Shown here: positions 7,953 through 55,432 of the stretch, piece after piece | Position numbering within the stretch: the stretch's first letter is position 1 | Layout: every line of letters starts with the position of its first letter | Source of the DNA: Bifidobacterium vansinderenii | GTDB taxonomy: Bacteria > Actinomycetota > Actinomycetes > Actinomycetales > Bifidobacteriaceae | Reading direction: 5' to 3' | Length of the DNA: 64,000 bases | Assembly (NCBI RefSeq): GCF_002234915.1 | Contig: NZ_NEWD01000021.1 | Location: 1 to 64,000 of the forward strand | Position numbers and translations under genes: made by a program | Notes under the pieces: model-generated | What the model saw: only the letters and a program-made list of their open reading frames with translations | What the model was told of the DNA's origin: nothing | The model's database searches: none

Positions 7953-10637
7953 GTGGAGGGTCCCGAAATCAAGGCCGTAGAGGCCGTAATCGACAATGGT
8001 TCATTCGGCAAGCGCACGCTGCGCTTCGAGACCGGTCTTCTCGCCCAGCAGGCGGACGGCGCCGTCGCCGCCTATCTTGACGATGATTCGATGATTCTGT
8101 CTACCACCACCGCCGGCTCCAGCCCGAAGGAGAACTACGACTTCTTCCCGCTGACCGTGGACGTGGAGGAGAAGATGTACGCCGCCGGCAAGATCCCCGG
8201 CTCCTTCTTCCGCCGCGAGGGTCGCCCGAGCTCCGAGGCCATCCTGGCCTGCCGCATCATCGACCGCCCGCTGCGCCCGCTGTTTCCGCACACGCTGCGC
8301 AACGAGGTGCAGGTCGTGGAGACCGTGCTCGCCGTCAACCCCGACGACGCGTACGACGTGATTGCCCTGAACGCCGCCTCCGCCTCCACCATGATCTCCG
8401 GCCTGCCCTTCGAGGGCCCGGTGTCCGGTGTGCGTCTGGCCCTGATCGACGGCCAGTGGGTCGCCTTCCCGCGCTGGAGCGAGCGCGAGCGCGCCGTGTT
8501 CGAGATCGTGGTCGCCGGCCGCGTGATCGAGAACGGTGACGTCGCCATCGCCATGATCGAGGCCGGCGCCGGCAAGAACGCCTGGAAGCTCATCTACGAG
8601 GACGGCCAGATCAAGCCCGACGAGACCGTCGTGGCCGGTGGTCTCGAGGCCGCCAAGCCGTTCATCAAGACCATCTGCGAGGCCCAGGACGAGCTCAAGC
8701 GCATCGCCGCCAAGGAGACCAAGGAGTTCCAGCTCTTCCCGGAGTACACCGACGATCTGTACAACCGCATCGACCAGATCGCGCACGGCGACCTCGACGA
8801 GGCCCTGTCCATCGCGGAGAAGCTGCCGCGTCAGGACCGCATCGCCGAGATCAAGCAGCACGTGAAGGACACCCTTGCCGGCGAGTTCACCGAGATGGAC
8901 GACGCCGAGAAGGAAAAGGAGATCGGCAACGCGTTCAAGGAGCTGCAGCGCCAGATCGTGCGTCGCCGCATCCTCACCCAGGACTACCGCATCGACGGCC
9001 GTGGCCTGCGCGACATCCGCACCCTGTCCGCCGAGGTGGACATCGTGCCCCGCGTGCACGGCTCCGCCCTCTTCCAGCGTGGCGAGACCCAGATCCTGGG
9101 CGTCACCACGCTGAACATGCTCAAGATGGAGCAGCAGATCGACGCGCTGTCCGGTCCGACCACCAAGCGCTACATGCACAACTACGAGATGCCGCCGTAC
9201 TCCACCGGTGAGACCGGCCGCGTTGGCTCCCCGAAGCGCCGCGAGATCGGCCACGGCGCCCTCGCCGAGAAGGCCATCGTGCCGGTGCTGCCGGATCGCG
9301 AGGAGTTCCCCTACGCCATCCGCCAGGTCTCCGAGGCCATCGGCTCCAACGGCTCCACCTCCATGGGCTCCGTGTGCGCCTCCACCCTGTCGCTGCTCGC
9401 GGCGGGCGTGCCGCTGAAGGCCCCGGTGGCGGGCATCGCCATGGGTCTGGTCTCCGGCGACGTGGACGGCCAGCACATCTACAAGACGCTCACCGACATC
9501 CTGGGCGCCGAGGACGCGTTCGGCGACATGGACTTCAAGGTCGCCGGTACTTCCGAGTTCATCACCGCCCTGCAGCTTGACACCAAGCTCGACGGTATCC
9601 CGGCCGACATCCTGGCCGCCGCCCTGCAGCAGGCGCACGAGGCCCGCGCCACGATCCTCGACCTGATCAACGAGTGCATCGACGAGCCGGCCGAGATGAG
9701 CGAGTTCGCCCCGCGCATCATCACCACCACCGTTCCGGTTGAGAAGATCGGCGAGGTCATCGGCCCGAAGGGCAAGATGATCAACCAGATCCAGGAGGAC
9801 ACCGGCGCCGAGATCGCCATCGAGGATGACGGTACCGTGTTCATCTCCTCCGAGGGTGGCGAGGCCGCCGAGAAGGCCAAGGCCATCATCGACCAGATCG
9901 CCAACCCGCACGTGCCGGAGGCCGGCGAGCAGTACAACGGCAAGGTCGTGAAGACCACGTCGTTCGGAGCGTTCGTGAACCTGACCCCGGGCACCGACGG
10001 TCTGCTGCACATCAGCCAGATCCGCAACCTCGCCAACGGCGAGCGCATCGACGCCGTCGAGGACGTGCTCAAGGAAGGCGACACCGTCGAGGTGGTCGTG
10101 CAGGGCGTGGACGATCGCGGCAAGATCTCGCTGGCCATCCCCGGCTTCGAGGACCAGGAGTCCGGCGCCGGCCGTGGCGCCTCCCGCGGTGGTGACCGTC
10201 GTGAGCGCGATGACCGTCGTGGCGGACGCCGCGATGACCGTCGTGACGACCGTCGCCGTGACGATCGCGAGGATCGTCGTCCGCGTCGTCGTCGCTACGA
10301 TGACGATCGTTACGATCACGACGATCGCGACTACGATCGCGATGACCGTCGCCGTGGCGACCGTTACGATCACGATGATCGTGATGATCGTCGTGGCCGT
10401 CGTGATGACCGTTACGATCGCGATGACCGTCGTGGTGGCCGCCGTGACCGTGATGACCGTTACGATCGCGATGATCGCCGTGATGACCGTCGTGGTGGCC
10501 GTGGCCGTCGTGATGACCGCAACCCGCGCTACGCCGTGGATGACTCCTATGACGAGTACCGCGCCGACCGCGAGGAGCGTTCCGAGCGTCCGCGCCGTCG
10601 TGTGCGCCGCGACTTCGACCCCTTCGACGAGGACTGA
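7953..10637 (+). CDS. pnp: Polyribonucleotide nucleotidyltransferase (PNPase) with Arg/Asp-rich tail
   Basis: 894 residues. PNPase degrades RNA 3' to 5' by phosphorolysis and can add 3' tails. Domains in order: first RNase PH core (about 20-150), helical linker, second RNase PH core (about 340-560, with [13 protein letters not shown] and the [16 protein letters not shown] catalytic region), KH domain (about 588-650, [13 protein letters not shown]) and S1 domain (about 657-730, [15 protein letters not shown]). Residues 735 onward are a low-complexity Arg/Asp/Tyr tail that makes the protein some 150-190 residues longer than enterobacterial PNPase (about 710). The GTG start at 7953 follows AAAAAAGGAGGAAC. 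Confidence 0.97.
10180..10530 (+). repeat. Internal coding repeats in the pnp tail
   Basis: Short in-frame repeats built from CGTGATGACCGT and TACGATCGCGATGAC blocks encode [11 protein letters not shown] and YDHDDR. The tract looks prone to length change by slippage or unequal recombination. Confidence 0.85.
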
Positions 10638-17725: not shown

Positions 17726-17837
17726 GGCCGGCATATGGTGCTCGACTGTATCAGCGGAGGCGATGTGATACGCTCTGCGATCACATCGCCGGAGCGAGGC
17801 CAAACGGCCCGAGTGTGTCGAGCACCATATGCCGGCC
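17726..17837. repeat. 112-bp element with perfect 21-bp terminal inverted repeats
   Basis: Arms at 17726-17746 and 17817-17837 are exact inverted copies (GGCCGGCATATGGTGCTCGA...). Nested inside is a second inverted repeat, GGCGATGTGAT (17759-17769) with ATCACATCGCC (17780-17790). There is no ORF. The layout resembles a miniature inverted-repeat element or a cruciform. Confidence 0.8.
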
Positions 17838-17927
17838 TGCAGCGCCCCTCCATCGCCTGCAGCGCCCCTCCATCGCCTGCAGCGCCCCTCCATCAACCTT
17901 CGCAATCCCAAACCTTCGCAATCCTAC
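17835..17927. repeat. 20-bp tandem repeat (3 copies) plus 17-bp tandem repeat (2 copies)
   Basis: GCCTGCAGCGCCCCTCCATC occurs three times without gaps at 17835-17894. It is followed by AACCTTCGCAATCC twice (17895-17927). The remainder up to ispD (17928-18050) is C-rich without a clear feature. Confidence 0.9.
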
Positions 17928-54705: not shown

Positions 54706-54745
54706 CGAAGGCCTCCCCGCGCATTCCCGCGCCGGGAGGCCTTCG
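54706..54745 (+). terminator. Terminator after uxuA
   Basis: CGAAGGCCTCCC pairs with GGGAGGCCTTCG around a 16-nt loop. Confidence 0.8.
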
Positions 54746-54928
54746 TCATATCCGCATCCGTCACGCTCGTCACGAACACGCGTCAAACCCGCACCGAGCG
54801 CACCGTTACGATGCGGTCGTCATGCGAGCGCAACGGACCCGCACTGAACGCGCCGAGTGCACCTCCACACTGCGGGTTCGTCGTTCATCCACGTCGGACC
54901 CGCACTGTAAGGCTCATTCGCTGCACGC

Positions 54929-55136
54929 GTGCGTCAAATGGGAACCGGACGTGACGCTACGGTGTTTATCCGACGCATGCGTGCGTCAAATACACCCTGA
55001 AATCGATCGTATGCGGCTTATTTGCCGCGTACGTGCGTCAAACAGGCCTCGGAAGCGTCTCTACGGTGTCTATCCGACGTATATGTGCGGCAAATAAGCA
55101 CCGAGAGTGTCTCTTGGCGTGCGTATGCCGTGCGAG
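54929..55136. repeat. Degenerate tandem array 1, period 52 nt, four units
   Basis: GTGCGTCAAA starts at 54929, 54981 and 55033, and GTGCGGCAAA at 55085, each exactly 52 nt apart. CTACGGTGT at 54957 and 55061, and TATCCGACG at 54967 and 55071, keep the same register. The core is an imperfect palindrome (TTTGCCGCGTACGTGCGTCAAA-like). Related CCCGCAC and GCGTCAAA words occur upstream from 54780 at irregular spacing. Confidence 0.85.
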
Positions 55137-55139
55137 GGG

Positions 55140-55396
55140 GCGCCACGATTACGTTCCGTTGCGTCCAATGAACGATACGCATCCGACGCGAGTGCTGCGA
55201 GTACGTTCCGATGGAGAAGCGAAACGGAACGTACTCGAAAAGGACGATACGGTTACGTTCCGTCGTGAGTGCGGGACGAAACGTAACCGAATGTAGTGCC
55301 ACGATTACGTTCTGGTGTGAGTATGAGACGAAACGTAACCAAACGTAGTGCCACGGTTACGCTCCGTTGCGGATGATGGACGGAACGTAACCGAAG
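55140..55396. repeat. Tandem hairpin array 2, period 52 nt, five units
   Basis: TACGTTCC-type words start at 55150, 55202, 55254, 55306 and 55358, exactly 52 nt apart. The matching GACGRAACGTAACC arms at 55275, 55327 and 55379 keep the same period. Unit 2 forms a perfect 12-bp stem (GAGTACGTTCCG/CGGAACGTACTC, 55199-55236). Units 3 and 5 form 13-14-bp stems with one mismatch. No ORF of note. Confidence 0.9.
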
Positions 55397-55399
55397 ATA

Positions 55400-55432
55400 C
55401 GAAAAAAGCTCCTCTCGGAGGGGAGAGGAGCT
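55400..55432 (-). terminator. Terminator of the hexulose-phosphate operon
   Basis: On the minus strand AGCTCCTCTC ... GAGAGGAGCT is followed by TTTTTT, 86 nt beyond the last gene of the operon. Confidence 0.9.

Follow-up and report, generated by a model that had tools for sequence, protein, structure and literature searches.

The window analysed here is a 64,000-nucleotide stretch of the 3.1-Mb draft genome (G000) of a Bifidobacterium near B. callimiconis. It contains an array of about 630 bases between uxuA, encoding D-mannonate dehydratase (PF03786; 53462..54592, plus strand), and a convergent SIS-domain gene (PF01380; 55518..56081, minus strand), which may be 6-phospho-3-hexuloisomerase-like. 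A preliminary description of this DNA had placed the array between two terminators, and two terminator-like hairpins do flank it, one on the uxuA side (54706..54745, with 15 of 16 arm positions paired) and one with an A run on the SIS-gene side (55401..55432). Neither the hairpins nor the blocks of the array are assigned a strand.

The unit of the array is an inverted repeat of about 40 bp plus a spacer of about 12 bp, so that half-sites of about 16 bp flip orientation about every 26 bp. Of the two adjacent arrays originally described, the 52-nt step stands, but there are in fact three blocks, with an extra one (type C) upstream. The type C block (about 54765..54907) is degenerate and is built of half-sites around TGCGGGTTCGTC / GACGAACCCGCA; its best unit lies at 54868-54907 and holds an exact match to the two-arm pattern at 54871-54904. 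The type B block (about 54911..55103) has units at 54960-54999, 55012-55051 and 55064-55103, a step of 52, and the consensus over 24 type B units is CGGTGCTTATnnGACGCATGCnTGCGTCAAATAAGCACCG. The type A block (55146..55393) consists of five 40-nt units starting at 55146, 55198, 55250, 55302 and 55354, with 12-nt spacers, a step of exactly 52 and the half-site CGGTTACGTTCCGTTG; the second arm of its first unit is degenerate. The blocks are out of a common 52-nt phase, with unit starts (54868, 54960 and 55146) that are 92 and 186 apart. In each of the three types, 90% or more of the units keep T10 and G13. Mixed B/C units are present (as judged by eye), and the half-sites therefore appear to be modular. 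The repeated words picked out in the preliminary description recur at 52 and all 12 of their positions are correct (nine exact, and three, at 55085, 55306 and 55358, with one mismatch), but the actual repeat is the inverted-repeat unit with its alternating half-sites.

We used autocorrelation of 54760-55410 to examine the period, and the expected peak is present: the top lag is 52 (49% identity, z 12.9) and the next is 104 (z 9.7), set against a maximum z of 4.8 over lags 1-220 in 500 random Markov-1 sequences. No stronger periodicity was found in the window; for 650-base stretches taken every 100 bases, the best value over the array was 13.5 and the best elsewhere 12.3 (lag 9, near 10001). 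TRF detects only the final 2.8 copies, at 55249-55395.

A position-weight scan for type A half-sites, in which matches were retained only with a same-strand neighbour at 52 or an opposite-strand neighbour within 20-30, covered the window locus and 20 further loci and kept 140 of 148 half-sites, in 17 loci (nine of the 140 are supplied by a near-copy, L022). Neighbouring half-sites follow a +24/+28/52 lattice in 121 of 123 pairs, comprising 65 plus-minus pairs at 24, 52 minus-plus pairs at 28 and four same-strand pairs at 52; the two off-lattice pairs are at 23 and, between blocks, at 320. Since neighbours sit at 24 and 28 on opposite strands, type A cores alternate every 26 bp. With L022 dropped, mean half-site identity is 0.716 within a locus and 0.715 across all loci. 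Half-sites of one locus are thus as unlike as those drawn from all loci, which agrees with the earlier proposal of selection on spacing rather than recent duplication. Since copies from different loci resemble each other no more than expected by chance, recent spread is not indicated. Within the half-site, T5, A6, C7, G8 and T10 agree in 96-100% of random pairs and the other 11 positions in 30-86%. For the 16-pair stem of 61 type A units, 47 of 500 shuffles equalled or exceeded the observed covariation score and 45 of 500 the observed share of paired cells. At single pairs, two-sided changes occur in 17 and 8 of the 61 units at pairs 3 and 4, in 8 at pair 16, which is mostly unpaired, and in just 2, 3, 0 and 3 at pairs 9, 11, 12 and 14.

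Exact matches to the type A two-arm core number 31 in G000, where the type occupies 12 or so loci, 22 in B. callimiconis (G002) and none in seven other genomes of the genus, with one match (in G007) for the reversed control. Exact type C matches number 5 in G000 and 37 in both G002 and G007. A single type C match was also found in each of 8 of the remaining 186 family genomes, and these are taken as chance because the reversed control likewise gives single matches, in 6 genomes. A type D pattern, which was too strict, had no match in eight genomes. Near the ends of two contigs lies a near-identical type A array (L021:369-640 and L022:1-240; G000:C17 and C27), which may have broken the assembly or may be duplicated.

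BLASTN found matches to the region in its own genome and five others of the 39, all within the genus, and in G001, G004 and G008 the sole match was the terminator-like hairpin. Next to relatives of the SIS-domain gene, an array was found in 2 of 14 scanned named loci (out of 16), those of B. callimiconis, with a period of 52 (record NZ_QXGJ01000007, strain 2028B, the orthologous locus), and B. tissieri, with steps of 52 then 51 and types C and B; the loci were taken by their SIS-gene relative and may not all have uxuA as the neighbour. In B. primatium, a different sequence follows the SIS-domain gene. Because only two of the 14 loci carry an array, its presence at this gene is lineage-specific. 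The preliminary description had held that orthologous loci lacking the array would speak against its proposal; measured by that condition, the array here is confined to a lineage, although the class itself is spread over the family, as shown below.

In none of 27 arrays does the overlap with a predicted gene exceed 60 bp, in a set that includes some arrays chosen by eye below the scan thresholds and with gene predictions that are approximate codon-usage calls. The 24 arrays with both neighbours known lie in 7 convergent, 15 tandem and 2 divergent gaps, and the background gaps are 24 convergent, 98 tandem and 32 divergent; neither difference is significant (convergent p = 0.14, divergent p = 0.26). 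Of the 15 arrays between tandem genes, 13 are closer to the stop codon of the upstream gene (p = 0.007, counted by hand). In an earlier set of 23, chosen for resemblance to the window, 6 gaps were convergent, 9 tandem and 5 divergent, with 3 unclassed; four loci are counted there in both species and one array (L021/L022) twice. The neighbours are unrelated genes, among them rho, a purK-like gene, chorismate mutase and a DEAD-box helicase. A Pfam search of 20 neighbour genes for a shared binder candidate found none that recurs, a few broad domains aside; 4 of the 20 had no family, and rho is counted twice, one orthologous place having been taken from two species.

Five array loci are orthologous between G000 and B. 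callimiconis, and all were aligned. Three of the pairs (L026/L033, L027/L037 and L030/L032) align cleanly, and two (the window with L031, and L025/L036) align poorly. In the three clean pairs, 6 of 150 type A core bases have changed, in comparison with 77 of the 410 remaining half-site bases (18.8%), 84 of 390 array bases outside the half-sites (21.5%) and 122 of 1008 bases of flanking DNA (12.1%), giving p = 1e-7 for core against spacer and p = 0.002 for core against flank. Over all five pairs, the counts are 13 of 216 in the core and 181 of 657 outside the half-sites. Divergence in the spacers and outer half-site bases outpaces that of the flanks, so some unusual mutation or exchange also appears to be at work; from the clean alignments, array units may be shuffled or may be mutating faster. 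Two clean pairs have no indel in the array, and the third has a 52-bp gap inside the A block and two more, of 4 and 1, where the A and B blocks meet. Between the type A blocks of the window and L031, the whole-locus and the block alignment both likewise place a single gap of exactly 52. Both changes of unit number, in the type A blocks of two arrays, are therefore of exactly 52 bp. Where B or C stretches are missing or unalignable, the gaps measure 2, 3, 7, 49 and 92 in the window/L031 pair and 29 and 94 in L025/L036.

We then scanned for the geometry irrespective of sequence, over lags of 26-130 in 101 stretches (2.064 Mb) from 42 Bifidobacteriaceae genomes, with thresholds of zD 6 and zfold 4, on both of which the list of periods depends. 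The scan gave 171 periodic events, of which 22, from 13 of the 42 genomes, have inverted symmetry (zfold at least 4). Their lags are 51 (8 events), 52 (8), 61 (1), 62 (2), 63 (1), 73 (1) and 104 (1); two neighbouring blocks of the window are included, and we interpret the event at 104 as 2 x 52. Four more events at 52 or 61 with zfold below 4, one of them a CRISPR-like array, were left uncounted. In the remaining 149 events the lag is a multiple of 3 in 138, as expected for coding DNA. Two complete genomes of the survey show periods of 52 and 61 (G062) and of 61 (G091). Forty 3-mer-shuffled stretches gave no events. In E. coli K-12, 350 kb in seven stretches held 8 periodic events, none with inverted symmetry, where about 4 symmetric ones would be expected at the family rate. 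No array was seen in 29 of the 42 genomes, each sampled over 20-200 kb, so the class is not established as universal; one of the 29, G077, carries an array elsewhere. The half-sites are almost wholly different between species, as judged by eye (e.g. GGTTCCYGTCCGTTG, GGTTATAACGCATG, GTGCATGTTT, TCCGATTCTGG, CCCGAATATGTGCC). The persistence of the spacing in relatives despite drift, which the preliminary description had put forward as a test, is thus what we found.

Place can persist along with geometry. Behind rho, where 28 of 30 loci could be examined, four loci pass the thresholds (G002 with type A, G000 with B and A, G007 with B and G008 with J) and a fifth, in G005, falls just below them (lag 52, z 6.6, zfold 3.3) with units of type I; counting the latter, five species have four half-site types at this place, all with steps of 51-52 bp, and 23 loci have no array. 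At the same place, a type A unit lies within a longer palindrome (GCGCCGTACGG ... CCGTACGGCGC; L025:1750-1815 and L036:1305-1366) that resembles the terminator of rho, with the array unit seemingly turned into its tip. Upstream of the DEAD-box helicase gene, 3 of 29 loci examined (of 30) carry arrays, with periods of 52 in G077 (B. erythrocebi) and G093 (B. merycicum) and 61 in G062, and the other 26 carry none; by coordinates only, a type C array also lies immediately upstream of this gene in G002.

The period classes of 51-52, 61-63 and 73 bp are close to 5, 6 and 7 helical turns. A scan of step sizes from 6 to 20 bp over 16 half-site types fits best at 10.5 bp (R 0.935) but little worse on either side (R 0.917 at 10.0 and 0.921 at 11.0), and the types were named by eye, with periods entered by hand, and are not independent. 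When two extra period classes were placed randomly, the fit was as good in 362 of 20,000 draws. A helical-turn rule is therefore suggested rather than proved, as there are few independent classes, 51 and 61 are not whole numbers of turns at 10.5, and the 51-52 class may be a single ancestral choice. The helical phasing originally proposed thus gains from period classes about one turn apart and is limited by the flat fit and small number of types. Its corollary that palindromic sites all face one side of the helix proved too simple; inverted neighbours are 26 bp, or 2.5 turns, apart, and successive sites therefore face opposite sides alternately.

What the computation establishes, then, is a periodic inverted architecture that is dispersed and intergenic, often just behind stop codons, a core that is constrained between two species, two changes of unit number by exactly one period, and a place and geometry that persist while half-site sequences differ. 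We consider it probable that the feature is a selected DNA-binding array for a putative protein, often situated just behind genes. A cooperative DNA-binding protein on alternating half-sites would be expected to leave a near-invariant core, blocks that keep an exact spacing and vary by whole units, and no covariation over the stem as a whole. The local covariation at type A positions 3-4, however, is not predicted by plain protein binding and counts against this reading, as do the faster divergence of spacers and outer half-site bases, the gaps of lengths other than 52 and the failure of any binder candidate to recur among the 20 neighbour genes. Beyond a selected DNA-binding array as such, we infer a protein reader, its cooperative assembly and a structural or insulating role. 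A sequence-specific protein, probably one of a family of related proteins with differing specificity, would bind the half-sites of about 16 bp in orientations that alternate every 26 bp or so, and would build up an ordered nucleoprotein structure by assembling cooperatively along repeats of five turns (elsewhere six or seven). The several half-site types per genome suggest either paralogous binders or one modular binder. That the arrays lie behind genes points to a role in structure, topology or insulation, of the kind also proposed for BIMEs, and the structure might serve the chromosome as a boundary or topological sink rather than in local regulation. More broadly, and with rather less confidence than an even chance would warrant, we envisage a chromosome-organising system of bifidobacteria that is conserved in geometry and not in sequence, in which fast-evolving binders build ordered nucleoprotein blocks behind genes on inverted half-sites at 5, 6 or 7 turns, letters and specificity changing together and place and step being kept.

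Another way to view the arrays is as BIME-like, non-autonomous selfish palindromes that are copied and amplified by an enzyme other than RAYT and tolerated behind genes, where they do least harm. E. coli BIME-2 and Xanthomonas REP clusters are likewise dispersed, intergenic, regularly spaced, alternating and species-specific, and one report (PMC2817692) describes the same alternation in BIMEs and their interaction with gyrase and IHF. The arrays share the extragenic, regular and alternating arrangement, and several types cluster at the same places. However, the half-site is not itself palindromic, the period classes are separated by about one helical turn and recur with unrelated half-site sequences, and the stem does not appear to be kept by complementary changes: covariation over the whole stem is not above that of shuffles, and, apart from the weakly paired 16, only pairs 3 and 4 have at least 8 two-sided changes. 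Neither is there a RAYT gene; the Y1 transposase domain (PF01797) is absent from G000 and from 178 of 189 family genomes, and the 11 that have it include none of the 13 array genomes nor G002, G005 or G077. The RAYT/REP reading was rejected on this ground. Five arrays at orthologous places in two species, core bases constrained between species and copies that are no closer across loci than chance, with no recent spread seen, further argue against selfish copying, and we regard it as unlikely, if still worth some weight. The relic of a mobile element entertained in the preliminary description, or an origin in phage, is unsupported: the region has no blastn match among plasmids (PLSDB, 72,556 records) or phages (INPHARED, 50,697 records), and exact two-unit patterns of types A and C are absent from viral contigs.

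Inverted repeats of 40 bp behind genes could also be transcribed into RNA stem-loops that act as bidirectional terminators or stabilise mRNA ends, and the covariation at positions 3-4 and the nesting of a type A unit in a longer palindrome behind rho would both fit. We nevertheless disfavour transcribed hairpins as improbable, given the lack of covariation over the whole stem, the few two-sided changes at pairs 9, 11, 12 and 14 and the presence of arrays between divergent genes too (5 of 20 and 2 of 24 in the two sets), and because a step matched to the helix would have no obvious purpose in RNA. No Rfam family matches the region at gathering score, and the two matches with E up to 1 (19.4 of 40 and 17.2 of 70 bits) are taken as chance. 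LacI, DeoR and TetR family genes adjoin some arrays, as they might if these were operators through which local transcription factors regulate adjacent genes, but the genes flanked are unrelated and many arrays lie between convergent genes or behind stop codons, so we give operators little credence. Least plausible of all, and already disfavoured, is an old neutral tandem duplication that has drifted with its period retained. Such an origin is compatible with the 35-51% of bases that differ between tandem units at lag 52 and with a unit number that changes by one. Against it, near-invariant core positions adjoin freely varying ones, the core is constrained between species and the same lattice recurs with unrelated sequences in other species.

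Among other known systems, iteron and partition-site arrays and matS- and parS-type sites are likewise phased or dispersed sets bound by proteins with structural roles; in the arrays here, no known site is recognised, type A alone occupies 12 or so loci of G000 and the half-site sequence varies within a genome. CGTC-tagged repeats, which include Neisseria dRS3, are also palindromic, intergenic and without a dedicated transposase (PMC3733652), and are reported there from five phyla with Actinobacteria not among them. Their tag is unpaired at one end. In the arrays, the GTAG/CGTC tag word is absent from the type A consensus (61 units), and types B and C hold CGTC/GACG within the paired arms. CRISPR arrays have a fixed period too but combine near-identical repeats with unique spacers, whereas all units here have drifted, with a mean type A half-site identity of 0.72, and it is the inverted half-sites that are conserved. 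For contrast, the CRISPR-like array in G120 (L154:4851-5200) has near-identical repeats GTGTTCCCCGCCTACGCGGGGATGATCCC with a 61-bp period. Searches by topic and by six half-site strings found no description of the arrays in a literature that mostly excludes subscription journals, an absence that is not proof.

If the reading of a selected DNA-binding array is correct, a genus of major gut symbionts carries widespread protein-binding arrays whose geometry outlives their sequence, which would raise the question by what means bifidobacterial chromosomes are organised and insulated and would offer a natural case of sites and binder changing together at many loci. A double unit used as bait would then provide a handle for finding the protein. 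Similarity search alone misses such elements, as relatives share the step and not the letters. BLASTN of the B. erythrocebi array against 189 genomes (at most three candidates scored in each) returned only that array's own genome and one 32-base match in G000, within a stretch that looks coding by eye.

Additionally, we noticed several other repeats. The window holds a 20-bp unit in three perfect copies at 17835-17894 and a degenerate tandem region with periods of 9-48 bp at 10206-10519. Elsewhere in G000 (C66), L079:921-1165 and L080:12221-12475 carry a repeat with a period of about 102-104 bp, made of GAAGGCGTACNNNGGTACGTCGA-like words or their complement, that is unlike the 52-bp arrays. 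In G129, short tandem repeats resembling GAGATAACGC (L123:1140-1350) share a 20-kb stretch with three phased arrays.
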